Source of the DNA: Streptomyces chartreusis NRRL 3882
GTDB taxonomy: Bacteria; Actinomycetota; Actinomycetes; Streptomycetales; Streptomycetaceae
Reading direction: 5' to 3'
Length of the DNA: 64,000 nt
Assembly: GCF_900236475.1 (NCBI RefSeq)
Contig: NZ_LT963352.1
Location: forward strand, 2,542,001-2,606,000
Part shown: one piece after another, positions 34,277-39,641 of the stretch
Numbering within the stretch: position 1 is the first letter of the stretch
Layout: each line of letters begins with the position of its first letter
Translations under genes and position numbers: made by a program
Notes under the pieces: generated by a model
Told to the model about the DNA's origin: nothing
Seen by the model: only the letters and a program-made list of their open reading frames with translations
Databases searched by the model: none

Positions 34277-35695
34277 TCAGCCCATCTCCTCCAGGGCCTT
34301 GCCCTTCGTCTCCTTGACGAACTTCAGGACGAAGGGGATGGAGAGCGCGGCGAACGCCGTGTAGATCACGTAGGTCGCGGACAGGTTCCAGTCGGCCAGC
34401 GACGGGAAGCTCGCGGTGATGGCCCAGTTGGCGATCCACTGCGCGGCCGCGGCCACACCGAGGGCGGCGGCACGGATCTTGTTGGGGAACATCTCGCCGA
34501 GGAAGACCCAGACGACCACACCCCAGGACAGGGCGAAGAAGAGGACGAAGATGTGCGCGGCGATCAGGGCGATCCAGCCCTGTGTGGCGGGCAGCTTGCC
34601 GTCGACCAGGTGGTACGAGAACGCCCAGGCCTCCAGCGCCAGGCCGACGACCATGCCGACCGAGCCGATGATCGCGAGCGGCCGCCGGCCGATGCGGTCG
34701 ACGAAGATCATCGCGATGACGGTGCCGACGATGTTGATGATCGACGTGGTGAAGGAGTAGAAGAACGAGTCCGTCGGGTCGACACCGACCGACTGCCACA
34801 GCGTCGAGGAGTAGTAGAACGCGACGTTGATGCCGACGAACTGCTGGAAGACGGAGAGGCCGATGCCGATCCAGACGATCGGCTTGAAGAAGAAGCCGCC
34901 GCCGAGCAGGTCCTTGAAGCTCGACCTGTGCTCGCTCTTCATGGCGCCCTCGATCTCGGCGACACGGGCGTCCAGGTCGACGCCCTTGCCCTCGACCTCG
35001 GTGAGGATCTCCCGGGCGCGCTCGTGCTTGCCGACGGAGATGAGGAAGCGCGGGGACTCGGGGATGGCGAAGGAGAGCAGCCCGTAGAGGACGGCCGGGA
35101 CGACCATGACGCCCAGCATGACCTGCCAGGCCTCCAGGCCCATCAGCTTGCCGCGCTGGTCGCCGTCGGCGGCGTTCAGCACACCCCAGTTGACCAGCTG
35201 CGACACGGCGATGCCGATCACGATCGCGGCCTGCTGGAAGGAGCCGAGCCGGCCGCGGTAGGCGGGCGGGGCGACCTCGGCGATGTAGGCCGGGCCGATC
35301 ACGGAGGCCATGCCGATGGCGAAGCCGCCGACGACGCGCCAGAAGGCGAGGTCCCACAGCGCGAAGGGCAGCGCGGAGCCCACGGCGCTGACGGTGAAGA
35401 GGACCGCGGCGATCTGCATGCACCGGATGCGCCCGATGCGGTCGGCTATGCGGCCGGCGGTCGCGGCGCCGATGGCGCAGCCGATGAGGGCGATGGCGAT
35501 GACCTGGGCGAGGGCCGCGGAGCCGACGTCGTAGCGGTCCCGGATGGCCTCGACGGCACCGTTGATCACGGAACTGTCGTAGCCGAAGAGGAAACCGCCC
35601 ATCGCGGCCGCCGCCGCGATGAACACGACATGCCCGAGATGCTCGGGATGAGCCGCCCTGGCTCCTGACTTGGGTGCCTGCGCTGTGCTGGTCAC
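34277..35695 (-). CDS. glcP: MFS sugar transporter, probably glucose permease GlcP
   Basis: 472 residues from GTG 35695, preceded by GAGGAG five bases upstream. Twelve membrane segments. Sugar-porter signatures: GGFLFGYDSSVINGAVEAIR in the first helix, then GRIADRIGRIRC, AEVAPPAYRGRLGS, PESPRFLISVGK, QQFVGINVAFYYSS and VDRIGRRPLAIIG, ending PETKG-like KETKGKALEEMG. In S. coelicolor the gene at the matching position encodes the glucose permease GlcP. The 222-bp upstream region has two sets of repeats. Confidence 0.85.
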   Translation of the reverse strand: MTSTAQAPKSGARAAHPEHLGHVVFIAAAAAMGGFLFGYDSSVINGAVEAIRDRYDVGSAALAQVIAIALIGCAIGAATAGRIADRIGRIRCMQIAAVLFTVSAVGSALPFALWDLAFWRVVGGFAIGMASVIGPAYIAEVAPPAYRGRLGSFQQAAIVIGIAVSQLVNWGVLNAADGDQRGKLMGLEAWQVMLGVMVVPAVLYGLLSFAIPESPRFLISVGKHERAREILTEVEGKGVDLDARVAEIEGAMKSEHRSSFKDLLGGGFFFKPIVWIGIGLSVFQQFVGINVAFYYSSTLWQSVGVDPTDSFFYSFTTSIINIVGTVIAMIFVDRIGRRPLAIIGSVGMVVGLALEAWAFSYHLVDGKLPATQGWIALIAAHIFVLFFALSWGVVVWVFLGEMFPNKIRAAALGVAAAAQWIANWAITASFPSLADWNLSATYVIYTAFAALSIPFVLKFVKETKGKALEEMG

Positions 35696-35751
35696 GTGTA
35701 CTCCTCGGGCCACCGGCAACGCTGCCGGAGGGAATCAGCCTTCGAGGTGCC

Positions 35752-35771
35752 ACCTGAAGGTACCTGAAGGT
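35752..35771. repeat. Tandem 10-bp direct repeat upstream of glcP
   Basis: ACCTGAAGGT occurs twice without spacing at 35752-35761 and 35762-35771, each with palindromic arms ACCT/AGGT. It lies about 57 bases upstream of the permease start, where an operator would be placed. No regulator can be assigned from the sequence. Confidence 0.75.
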
Positions 35772-35797
35772 AAAAGGAACGTTGCCGAGACTATGCC

Positions 35798-35814
35798 TTC
35801 AAGTTTCGAAGTCA
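35798..35814. promoter_or_regulatory. Operator-like repeat copy 1 upstream of glcP
   Basis: TTCAAGTTTCGAAGTCA at 35798-35814 matches a second copy at 35862-35878 in 15 of 17 positions. The core TTCAA-N3-TYGAA is palindromic. Lies about 105 bases upstream of the permease start in an AT-rich stretch. Confidence 0.6.
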
Positions 35815-35861
35815 ATAGGTCAGTAGCTGTGAATATGAAGCAGGAGTGTGTCAGTGATGTG

Positions 35862-35878
35862 TTCAAGTATTGAAGTCA
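35862..35878. promoter_or_regulatory. Operator-like repeat copy 2 between glcP and smc
   Basis: TTCAAGTATTGAAGTCA; TTCAA-GTA-TTGAA is a perfect 13-bp palindrome with a 3-base centre. It starts 64 bases from copy 1, about six helical turns, so both copies face the same side of the DNA. Confidence 0.6.
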
Positions 35879-35917
35879 TGGAGCGTCGCAGGTGAGACCT
35901 GTGTAGAGCACACCCAT

Positions 35918-38900
35918 CTAGCGGAGGCGCTGGCTGATGACCTTCGACACACCGTCGCCCTGCATGGAGACGCCGTAGAGCGCGTCGGCGACCTCCATCG
36001 TGCGCTTCTGGTGGGTGATCACGATCAGCTGGGAGGCTTCCTGGAGCTCCTGCATGATCCGGATGAGCCGCTGGAGGTTGGTGTCGTCGAGGGCGGCCTC
36101 GACCTCGTCCATGACGTAGAACGGGCTGGGCCGTGCCTTGAAGATCGACACGAGCAGCGCCACGGCGGTCAGCGACCGCTCCCCGCCGGAGAGCAGCGAC
36201 AGCCGCTTCACCTTCTTGCCCGGCGGACGGGCCTCGACGTCCACGCCCGTGGTGAGCATGTTGTCGGGGTCGGTCAGGATCAGCCGCCCCTCGCCACCGG
36301 GGAACAGCCGGCTGAAGACGCCCTCGAACTCCCGGGCCGTGTCCCGGTAGGCCTCGGTGAAGACCTGCTCGACACGCTCGTCGACCTCCTTCACCACCTG
36401 GAGGAGATCCGCCCGCGTCTTCTTGAGGTCCTCCAGCTGCTCGCTGAGGAACTGGTGGCGTTCCTCCAGCGCCGCGAACTCCTCCAGGGCGAGCGGGTTC
36501 ACCTTGCCGAGCTGCTGGTAGGCGCGCTCGGCCGACTTCAGGCGCTTCTCCTGCTCCGCCCGGACGAAGGGCCGGGGGCGGTTGCGCGGGTGCTCCGGGT
36601 CCTCCGGCAGCTCCTCGCCCTCGGCGGGGGGCGAGGGCGGCACGAGCTGGTGCGGTCCGTACTCCGCCACGAGCCCGGCCGGTTCCACACCCAGCTCCTC
36701 CAGCGCCTTGGTCTCCAGCTGCTCGATCCGCAGCCGCTTCTCGGCGCCGAGTACCTCGCCGCGGTGGACCGAATCCGTCAACTTGTCGAGTTCGGCCTTG
36801 AGATCGCGTCCCTCGGTGCGGGCGCGGGCGAGTTCCTGTTCGCGGCGGGCCTTGGCGGCCTCGGCGGCGGTGCGCTCCTCGTCGGCGCGGGCGAGGGAGA
36901 CCTCGACGTGCGCGAGCAGCTGCCGGGCCCCCGAGCCGACGGCCTCGGCGACGGCCGCCTCGTGCCGCAGCCGGGCCCGCCGCTGCTCGGCCCGCGCGCG
37001 TGCCTCGCGCTCCGCGCGGGCGGCCCGGTCCAGGGAGTCGGCCCGTCCGGCCAGGCCCTTGACCCGCTCCTCGTGCGTACGGACCTGGAGGCGGGCCTCC
37101 ATTTCGGTCTGGCGCGCGTTGGCCCCGTCGGCGGCGAGCCGGTCCCGTACGGAGGTGTCGGGCTCCTCCTCGACCGGCATCTCCTCGGCGACGGCGAGCC
37201 GCTCGGCGAGCTCCTCCACCTCTTGCAGCGCCTTGTCCAGGGCCTCCTGGGCACGGGCCGCGGCGGCGGTGGAGCGCTCGGCCTCCCCCGCCGCGCCTCG
37301 TGCCTGCCCGGCGAGCCGGCCGAGCTGCTGGGCTACGGCCGACTTCTCCCGGTCGGCGGCCCGGCGCCGCTCCCCCAGCTCCTCGACCAGCGCGGCGCAT
37401 GCCTTGCGCCGTTCGACGGCCGCGTGTTGCGCCTCGGTCAGCTCCTCGCAGCGGACGGCGAGCTCTTCCAGCTCGGCGGCGGCCTCGTCCACGGAAGCCT
37501 GTACTTCGAGGAGGCTCGGAGCGCCTGCGGAGCCGCCGTGGGCGAAGTGGGCGCCGAGGAGGTCGCCTTCGGCCGTTACTGCGGTGAGGTCGGGGTGGGC
37601 GTAGACGAGGTCCTCGGCGTCTTCGAGGGTGCCGACTACGACGATGCCGTGCAGCAGCCGGCGGACGGCCGGGATGAGGTCGGCGGGGCCGCGGACCAGG
37701 TCGGCGGCGTAGGTGTGGCGGGCGTCTGCAGGGCCGTCGTGGCTGGTCGCCCCCATGCGGGGGCAGCCGCACGTCTGCTGCGGCCCCGCGCCCCTGAGGA
37801 CGTCATCCCCTGCCAGGAGCAGAGTGGCCCTGCCTCCGTCCTGTTTGCGGAGGAGTCGGATCGCGTCGGCCGCAGAGGCCGGGGACGTGACCGCGATGGC
37901 GTCCGCCGCGGCACCGAACGCGGCGGCCAGTGCGACCTCGTGGCCCGGGGTCACCGTCAGGAGCTCCGCCGCCGGGCCGAGCAGGCCGGAGAGGCGGTCC
38001 TTGGCCGCGAGCAGTATGCCGGTGCCGTCCTTGCGCCGCAGCCCGAGCGCCAACGCTTCGTGGCGGGCCTGGGTGGCGGCCCGCCTGCGTTCCGCCGCCG
38101 TGCTCGCCTCGCGGGCCGCGGTGAGGGCGGCCTCGGCTTCGGTGAGCTGCTGCTTCGCCGCCTCGTGCTGTTCGGCGAGTTCCACGTCGCCGGCGTCGAG
38201 GCCGTCGACCTCGGCCTTGAGGGCCTCGTACTCCTCCTGGGCCGCGACGGCACGTTCCTGCGCTTCGTCGCGTGCGGTGGCCAGGCGTTCGATCTCGGCC
38301 TGGGCGGAGGCGGCGCGGGAGCGGGCCGCGTTGACCTGTCCGCTGAGCCGGGCCAGGCCCTCGCGCCGGTCGGCGATGGCGCGGGCGGCGTCCTTCAGGC
38401 GCCGTTCCTCCTGGGTCAGGGCGCGCTCCAGCTCGGCGCGGTGGGCGACCGTGTCCTCCAGGGCGCGCTCGGCCGCCTCCAGGGCCGCTTCCAGCTCGGC
38501 CTCCTGCTCGCGGATGCGGGCGGCCTCGCGCTCCATGTCCTCCGGGTCGCGGCCGCGCCGTTCCTCGGGAGGCGCGGAGGTGGCACTCTTCACGCGGGCG
38601 TCGGCGAGCGAGATCGTGCCGCGCACCCGCTCGGCGAGCTGGGAGAGCTCGTACCAGGTCTGCTGGGCGCGCTGGAGGCGCGGCGTGAGCTGCCGTACCT
38701 CGTCCTCCAGGAGCGCCTCGCGCTGGAGCGCCTTGCGCAGCTCCCGCTCGGCGGCCTCCTTGCGCTCCTTCAGCGCGGCCTCGTCGGCGACCTCGGCGTC
38801 GAGGGCCTCCCGGAGCCGTACGAGGTCGTCGGCCAGCAGGCGCAGCCGGGCGTCGCGCAGGTCGGCCTGGATGACGGCGGCCCGGCGGGCGACCGCGGCC

Positions 38901-39523
38901 TGGCGGCCGAGGGGCTTGAGCTGCCGTCTGAGTTCGTCGGTGAGGTCCTGCACGCGCGCGAGGTTGGCCTGCATCGCGTCCAGCTTGCGCAGCGCCTTCT
39001 CCTTGCGCTTGCGGTGCTTGAGGACGCCGGCGGCCTCCTCGATGAAGGCGCGGCGGCCCATGGGGTCGGCGTGCAGCACGGAGTCGAGCTGGCCCTGCCC
39101 GACGATGACGTGCATCTCGCGGCCGATGCCTGAGTCGGAGAGGAGCTCCTGGATGTCGAGGAGGCGGCAGGTGTCGCCGTTGATCTGGTACTCGCTGCCG
39201 CCGTTGCGGAACATGATCCGCGTGATGGTGACCTCGGCGTACTCGATGGGCAGGGCCCCGTCGGAGTTGTCGATGGTCAGGGACACCTCGGCCCGGCCCA
39301 GCGGCGGACGGCCGGTGGTGCCGGCGAAGATGACGTCCTCCATCTTGCCGCCGCGCAGCGACTTGGCACCCTGCTCGCCCATGACCCAGCTGAGCGCGTC
39401 GACGACGTTGGACTTGCCCGAGCCGTTCGGTCCGACGACGCACGTGATCCCCGGCTCGAACCGGAGTGTGGTCGCCGATGCGAACGACTTGAACCCGCGG
39501 AGGGTCAGGGCCTTGAGGTGCAC
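35918..39523 (-). CDS. smc: Chromosome segregation ATPase SMC
   Basis: Condensin ATPase for chromosome organisation and segregation, important in Streptomyces sporulation. 1201 residues from GTG 39523 (MHLKALTLRGFKSFASATTL). Walker A is GPNGSGKS (about 33); a long coiled coil runs from about 165 to 500; the hinge is about 520-680; a second coiled coil follows; the C-terminal signature is LSGGERSLTA and Walker B is YVMDEVEAALDD. In the hinge, about residues 577-595 (RGAGPQQTCGCPRMGATSH) are encoded by a dispersed repeat (37739-37794) and look inserted relative to the surrounding sequence. Stop codon TAG. Confidence 0.95.
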   Translation of the reverse strand: MHLKALTLRGFKSFASATTLRFEPGITCVVGPNGSGKSNVVDALSWVMGEQGAKSLRGGKMEDVIFAGTTGRPPLGRAEVSLTIDNSDGALPIEYAEVTITRIMFRNGGSEYQINGDTCRLLDIQELLSDSGIGREMHVIVGQGQLDSVLHADPMGRRAFIEEAAGVLKHRKRKEKALRKLDAMQANLARVQDLTDELRRQLKPLGRQAAVARRAAVIQADLRDARLRLLADDLVRLREALDAEVADEAALKERKEAAERELRKALQREALLEDEVRQLTPRLQRAQQTWYELSQLAERVRGTISLADARVKSATSAPPEERRGRDPEDMEREAARIREQEAELEAALEAAERALEDTVAHRAELERALTQEERRLKDAARAIADRREGLARLSGQVNAARSRAASAQAEIERLATARDEAQERAVAAQEEYEALKAEVDGLDAGDVELAEQHEAAKQQLTEAEAALTAAREASTAAERRRAATQARHEALALGLRRKDGTGILLAAKDRLSGLLGPAAELLTVTPGHEVALAAAFGAAADAIAVTSPASAADAIRLLRKQDGGRATLLLAGDDVLRGAGPQQTCGCPRMGATSHDGPADARHTYAADLVRGPADLIPAVRRLLHGIVVVGTLEDAEDLVYAHPDLTAVTAEGDLLGAHFAHGGSAGAPSLLEVQASVDEAAAELEELAVRCEELTEAQHAAVERRKACAALVEELGERRRAADREKSAVAQQLGRLAGQARGAAGEAERSTAAAARAQEALDKALQEVEELAERLAVAEEMPVEEEPDTSVRDRLAADGANARQTEMEARLQVRTHEERVKGLAGRADSLDRAARAEREARARAEQRRARLRHEAAVAEAVGSGARQLLAHVEVSLARADEERTAAEAAKARREQELARARTEGRDLKAELDKLTDSVHRGEVLGAEKRLRIEQLETKALEELGVEPAGLVAEYGPHQLVPPSPPAEGEELPEDPEHPRNRPRPFVRAEQEKRLKSAERAYQQLGKVNPLALEEFAALEERHQFLSEQLEDLKKTRADLLQVVKEVDERVEQVFTEAYRDTAREFEGVFSRLFPGGEGRLILTDPDNMLTTGVDVEARPPGKKVKRLSLLSGGERSLTAVALLVSIFKARPSPFYVMDEVEAALDDTNLQRLIRIMQELQEASQLIVITHQKRTMEVADALYGVSMQGDGVSKVISQRLR
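37739..37794. repeat. Dispersed 56-bp repeat inside smc (copy A)
   Basis: The sequence beginning GTGGCTGGTCGC and ending CGGCCCCGCGCCCC matches 47524-47579 in 44 of 56 positions; both ends are identical over 12 and 14 bases, and most differences lie in a 9-base central stretch. It contains a partly palindromic GCGG...CCGC core. Here it is in frame in the minus-strand smc gene and adds about 19 residues to the hinge. Confidence 0.85.
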
Positions 39524-39641
39524 GCCGCTGGACTCTACCGCCCGGGTTCGTCTCACTCCATGAACCCACGGTTTCGCCGCTGAACGCGCAGGGCACACCA
39601 GACGTTAAAGACGGTGAAAGGATGCGCGGGGGGAAAGAAAG

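Follow-up and report, generated by a model that had tools for sequence, protein, structure and literature searches.

A candidate operator pair in whole-turn register upstream of the sugar permease gene glcP of Streptomyces chartreusis NRRL 3882

Operator pairs and ROK regulators of sugar genes

Looping repressors with phased operator pairs are represented by LacI and GalR and, among the ROK proteins, by NagC at nagE-nagB. In the genus Streptomyces, glcP provides the main glucose uptake. Glucose induces it strongly, and this induction does not need the glucose kinase, which accounts for most carbon control in the genus. Van Wezel is said to have described glcP1 and glcP2 of S. coelicolor in 2005, and Romero reportedly treated the glcP promoter of S. 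peucetius in 2015. The gene studied here is the same as glcP1/glcP2, and one glcP is present in its genome at the homologue-search threshold used. In S. coelicolor, glucose induces glcP1/2 (20-fold), xylFGH (10-fold) and rok7B7 together, and glcP independently of Glk, according to an excerpt of the study (PMC4848846).

The ROK regulator Rok7B7 (SCO6008 in S. coelicolor, SAV_2248 in S. avermitilis) acts on glcP and xylFGH, and its targets include glucose uptake, as stated in the excerpted part of a review (PMC8966007). A figure legend of that review has Rok7B7 repressing glcP and xylFGH, and the excerpt adds that glucose raises its affinity for xylFGH (PMC8966007). A rok7B7 deletion strain of S. 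avermitilis used less glucose (25% vs 33%) in the excerpted results (PMC9597109). Specific Rok7B7 binding could not be seen in the gel shifts covered by an excerpt of another paper (PMC4856308). RokB and CsnR of Streptomyces are likewise ROK-family proteins with inverted-repeat sites, but these sites (TTTGTTC-11-GAACAAA and CCTCTTCTGGTAGGAAACTTTCCTATCAGT, in the same excerpt) differ from the glcP motif (PMC4856308).

The glcP locus resembles the LacI, GalR and NagC systems in having two similar operator-like sites, one over the promoter, at a whole-turn spacing. It differs in an arc of 5 to 10 turns that changes by whole-turn steps between species, and protein bridging at glcP is a prediction. 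The Rok7B7 system is the closest in its letters, the xylF site TTTACTTCTTGAC of the xylFGH operator belonging to the same motif class as the distal sites of glcP. The operator-pair architecture is of a known kind and the regulator is probably a known one. In the open papers searched, neither the helix-phased two-operator arrangement with its whole-turn record nor ppdK and galT as (joint) Rok7B7 targets were found in print; Swiatek 2013 and Lu 2020 may contain them. The pair would supply a concrete site and a candidate regulator for the Glk-independent glucose switch of glcP.

The palindrome pair, its conservation and its spacing

The window, i.e. the whole stretch of 64,000 nucleotides analysed, carries glcP and smc on the minus strand with 222 bp between them (35696-35917). 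The start codon of glcP was set by GAGGAG and GTG together with relatives. Its product scored over the cut-off of the sugar porter family TIGR00879 and under those of the XylE and staphylococcal GlcP equivalogs. The features are as follows.

34277-35695, minus strand: glcP, MFS glucose/sugar permease, GTG start at 35695-35693; open reading frame with a Sugar_tr match (PF00083, 346 bits)
35713-35728, minus strand: possible leader hairpin CCGGCAGCGTTGCCGG, from folding, upstream of the GAGGAG ribosome-binding site
35739-35760, minus strand: possible leader hairpin CCTTCAGGT..ACCTCGAAGG, from folding
35752-35771, minus strand: tandem ACCTTCAGGT (ACCTGAAGGT on the plus strand), inside the predicted transcribed leader
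35788-35815, minus strand: predicted glcP promoter TTGACT-16 bp-TAGTCT (-35 at 35810-35815, -10 at 35788-35793), from conservation
35797-35811, minus strand: candidate proximal operator CTTCGAAACTTGAAG, between the predicted -35 and -10
35819-35842, minus strand: moderately conserved loop stretch upstream of the -35, from column conservation (block positions about -26 to -13)
35861-35875, minus strand: candidate distal operator CTTCAATACTTGAAC, a perfect TTCAA-3-TTGAA and conserved upstream palindrome
35918-39598, minus strand: smc

On the glcP strand, the order is CTTCAATACTTGAAC (35875-35861), a AACTCACAG-like stretch, TTGACT (35815-35810), CTTCGAAACTTGAAG (35811-35797), TAGTCT (35793-35788), GCAACGTTCC, the tandem ACCTTCAGGT (35771-35752), the possible hairpin at 35728-35713, GAGGAG and GTG. 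The earlier note had described the glcP-smc space as AT-richer than its surroundings, and its G+C content is indeed 52% against 71% in the window, falling to 42.5% at 35761-35880. It had also listed two 17-mers, which were recovered as TTCAAGTTTCGAAGTCA (35798-35814) and TTCAAGTATTGAAGTCA (35862-35878), 64 bp apart from start to start; a repeat search lengthens them to two 22-nt copies of 82% identity. On the minus strand, both copies are inverted repeats of half-sites flanking 3 bp (CTTCGAAACTTGAAG and CTTCAATACTTGAAC), the proximal one sitting in the 16-bp spacer of the promoter. Between the distal site and the -35, the majority of relatives read AAAA-CTCACA-G in the loop stretch, which might bind another protein or serve as an upstream promoter element.

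The search of the genome for the palindrome that the earlier note had proposed returned, for the 17-mer at up to 2 mismatches, two matches in 8.98 Mb, both at glcP, and no match for the reversed control of the pattern. Without mismatches, TTCRANNNTTGAA also occurs in the genome only at the two glcP sites. The loosened CTTCRANNNTTGAAG with 2 mismatches was unspecific over the whole genome (63+52 strand hits vs 124+131 for its reversed control), and such loosened patterns were rejected, the reversed control being hit more often than the pattern. A generic promoter scan detected no glcP promoter; the assignment of TTGACT-16 bp-TAGTCT as the putative promoter comes from conservation.

A total of 141 upstream regions of glcP were read, consisting of the window, the best 80 of at least 582 glcP loci, and 60 chosen regions. 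The window and the best 80 form the set of 81 Streptomyces. The 60 chosen regions (14 of them Streptomyces) were picked from 113 genomes with a glcP match, the proteins being mostly 68-88% identical; homologues at 59-67% identity (e.g. genus code g14) lay outside the promoter reading. The promoter was recognised in 125 of the 141 regions, 16 of the 60 chosen ones having been dropped before counting with a block score of -26 or less. TTGACT occurs in 74 and TANNNT in all of the 81 Streptomyces. In the same set, 50 members share an identical proximal palindrome and the rest have near variants. The distal palindrome (at least 8 of 10 letters) is kept in 119 of the 125 recognised promoters, compared with 1.7% per promoter in shuffled sequence; six recognised promoters lack a distal site. 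When the 222-bp space was used as query in a megablast-like search, 39 of 61 Streptomyces genomes gave matches, and most of these matches have in common a core of roughly 57 bp (35762-35818). The comparison across Streptomyces with a glcP homologue thus bears out conservation of the TTCAA pair, which is in all likelihood functional.

Spacings between the proximal and distal sites in the 119 promoters fall into six classes, 53-55 (8 promoters), 62-65 (86), 73-75 (17), 83-86 (4), 94 (2) and 107-108 bp (2), with no values between them; distances of 40-125 bp upstream were searched, and for L052, where 72 and 64 tied, 64 was taken. A Rayleigh test on the 17 distinct spacings, which depend partly on each other, so that its p value is a guide, gave R=0.76 and p ~5e-5 at 10.5 bp, and periods of 10.5-10.75 bp gave R values of 0.76-0.77. 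No phasing is seen in how far the proximal site lies from the start codon (43 distinct values, p 0.67) or in weak 6-of-10 sites (93 sites, p 0.41). The spacing data span eight genus codes (g1, g3, g6, g7, g8, g12, g13 and g16). Among the 81 Streptomyces, 70 have a spacing of six turns, 10 of seven and one of eight, with at least six changes of turn class on a quick tree of smc and glcP DNA that has open forks. The spacing changes by whole turns only; length changes have therefore been kept almost only when the helical face was restored. Such a record is direct evolutionary evidence for cooperation of the two glcP sites, presumably through protein contact on one helix face, and looping would be its simplest physical form at 5-10 turns. 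The earlier suggestion of one regulator on two sites, or of DNA looping, gains support for the TTCAA set from these cross-species shifts. As a natural record of operator spacing shifting by whole turns in eight genera, the glcP pair is unusually clear for a known architecture, and its like is rare outside built promoter series.

The preferred explanation, which is somewhat more probable than not, holds that the TTCAA-3-TTGAA pair forms matched operators for one dimeric ROK regulator, most likely Rok7B7, acting cooperatively and probably by looping in repression. One such dimeric regulator would read both palindromes. Its proximal operator would occupy the spacer of the glcP promoter, and the distal one, whole turns farther upstream, would face the same side of the helix. 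Dimers on both sites would touch, the short DNA between them bending, probably into a small loop, and this contact would compensate for the weak, promoter-constrained proximal site. The bound pair would exclude RNA polymerase until a sugar signal released the regulator and freed the promoter.

The ACCTGAAGGT repeats and the glcP leader

The earlier note had counted the tandem repeats as a second operator-like set. Their presence was confirmed, ACCTGAAGGT standing twice at 35752-35771. The tandem ACCTTCAGGT is found in 14 of the 81 Streptomyces (window and best 80), a single copy in 65, and it sits about 15-35 nt past the -10, downstream of the predicted transcription start. The operator reading of the ACCTGAAGGT set was dropped as the main one because the tandem is restricted to these 14 members and lies past that start, within the leader. 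Of the two sets proposed, the TTCAA pair stands as candidate operators; the ACCTGAAGGT repeats probably do not serve as one. By folding, the ACCTTCAGGT element may provide one arm of a hairpin in the leader.

Possibly, a structured leader made up of the ACCTGAAGGT repeats and the conserved sequence behind the promoter tunes translation or stability of the glcP mRNA besides the operators, by means of two hairpins and another pairing open to the GCAACGTTGC end; such a layer is rather doubtful. The GCAACGTTGCTTTTACCTTCAGGT stretch is strongly conserved, other genera have differently lettered hairpins at the same two places, and in 25 of 35 arm types the own hairpin partner does better than a swapped one, a modest covariation. 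Against this, RNAalifold found 0 consensus pairs on 44 sequences, in whose MAFFT alignment the arms were poorly matched. Leaders rich in GC fold in any case, several short leaders are without hairpins, and Rfam offers no match: with Rfam 15, the window gave 0 matches at the gathering score, and 35600-35930 gave one sub-threshold Twister-sister match (14.6 bits vs 34) inside the glcP coding region.

The leader (35696-35781, minus strand) begins with GCAACGTTGC, which reads GCAACGTTCC in the window. In relatives, GCAACGTTGC can pair with GCAGCGTTGC of the second hairpin, and this pairing and the second hairpin are mutually exclusive folds. A reading of the conserved GCAACGTTGC over the predicted start as a LacI-like palindrome was dropped.

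The candidate regulator and other genes with the motif

The palindrome was not a motif that the earlier note could assign; its owner is now likely a ROK regulator, most likely Rok7B7, because the motif is common to rok7B7 and xylF and resembles the consensus ascribed to Rok7B7. There are 22 ROK matches in the genome, and 18 promoters of ROK genes were examined, some with estimated starts. With the motif derived from glcP, only the rok7B7 promoter among these 18 scores 8 or more (11.2; the next 7.8). The rok7B7 homologue (L116) combines ROK (PF00480) with an N-terminal winged HTH and is located before xylF, whose product has D-xylose binding proteins as best matches, under the curated cut-offs. 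Among 30 rok7B7-xylF loci, TTTACTTCTTGAC occurs at xylF in 20, of which 18 have a second site exactly 43 bp off, and GTTCACNNNTTGGA occurs in 24.

The Rok7B7 consensus given by Lu et al. in 2020 is reportedly TTKAMKHSTTSAV, a string not found printed in the open papers searched. Against this consensus, the xylF site fits in 13 of 13 letters. The distal glcP site fits with at most one mismatch in 58 of 81 species (window and best 80), the copy in the window having one mismatch, and only four of all 13-mers in the 64-kb window fit as well as this. The proximal site fits poorly, with 3 mismatches in 57 of the 81. As rok7B7 is present in 46 of 46 Streptomyces and in 60 of 60 further genomes of the family, including those where the glcP site was unrecognised, co-occurrence with rok7B7 was set aside as uninformative.

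Repression of glcP by Rok7B7 is the assumed sign of action, and the literature on the sign conflicts. A less probable alternative, still with a real chance of being right, is that Rok7B7 activates glcP or toggles between activation and repression with the sugar. The reduced glucose use of the S. avermitilis deletion strain, as excerpted (PMC9597109), and the raised affinity for xylFGH in glucose are ill-suited to simple repression of glcP. The excerpted joint rise of glcP, xylFGH and rok7B7 on glucose (PMC4848846) and the distal site, at a position open to upstream activators, also speak for activation. The overlap of the proximal site with the promoter spacer, which is the usual place of a repressor, and the review legend that has Rok7B7 repressing glcP and xylFGH (PMC8966007) speak against it.

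A matrix built from the glcP sites, whose own scores are hence no evidence, gives three sites scoring at least 8 in the window, two of them the glcP pair. Exact TTCAANNNTTGAAS occurs in 25 of 31 Streptomyces genomes at 33 distinct sites (58 strand hits vs 6 for the reversed control). Sixteen of these precede glcP, six precede ppdK and one lies between galT and a sodium/solute symporter gene; seven of the remaining ten were examined and show no clear common gene. The motif is common to ppdK, galT, rok7B7 and xylF. Promoters of ppdK carry a site scoring at least 13 in 86 of 90 cases from 13 genus codes, with 0.9% in shuffles. In 25 of 30 Streptomyces loci, the best ppdK site has a second one at a distance of 73-74 bp, in either order of strength, and both sites score at least 10 in 17 of the 30. 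Outside Streptomyces, most ppdK promoters lack the second site; whole-turn phasing at ppdK was rejected there, the spacings of second-best sites being unphased. The galT/symporter site is found in 18 of 25 readable loci (5 of 30 were unreadable by the pattern used), and in 12 of 25 it has a weak partner at 42-44 bp; the conservation of this partner may stem from the start of the symporter gene. Both ppdK and galT are likely joint targets with glcP.

A wider proposal is that one ROK regulator forms a short-range looping sugar switch throughout the Streptomycetaceae, always via whole-turn pairs (4 turns at xylF and galT, 7 at ppdK, 5 to 10 at glcP). In one circuit, it would tie the uptake of glucose to the entry of xylose and galactose and to the PEP-pyruvate step. 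It would also be the missing switch by which glucose acts on glcP independently of Glk, and a structured mRNA leader would add a second layer. In this full extent, the proposal is speculative and rather improbable.

It is unlikely that the same phased pair is read by another ROK protein, or by a protein of another family with a TTCAA-type motif. The genome offers 22 ROK matches, the assignment to Rok7B7 comes from motif similarity and the reported consensus, and a second ROK regulator gene lies directly upstream of ppdK (L136 1634-2866) and adjoins ppdK in 18 of 30 Streptomyces loci. Among the 18 ROK promoters examined, however, only that of rok7B7 has the motif, and ppdK retains its motif in loci in which no adjoining ROK gene was found. 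The gene beside ppdK was rejected as the owner of the motif, since it adjoins ppdK in those 18 loci only and the motif is kept in the rest. That the repeats are mere promoter elements or chance, read by no regulator, is extremely improbable: the proximal copy does overlap the -35 and the spacer, but spacer sequence of promoters is normally unconserved, the distal copy is held far upstream in whole-turn register, and 22 of the 33 exact TTCAANNNTTGAAS sites in the 31 genomes precede glcP or ppdK.

Three further observations concern genes with motif sites. Upstream of ppdK (L245-L274), an inverted repeat of the CGCTCATNTGAGCG type lies between the two sites in many Streptomyces. In the window's genome, a single site CTTTTAGTTTTGAAG with a score of 15.8 lies about 50 bp before a transketolase-like gene (L150 1522-1537, G000:C1:1366522). 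Two sites scoring 12.5 and 10.0, again 64 bp apart, precede a GH48 cellulase gene (L135 2585-2661, G000:C1:1525084-1525160). This pair, read in the window's genome, flanks on both sides GGGAGCGCTCCC, which we take to be a CebR-type box.
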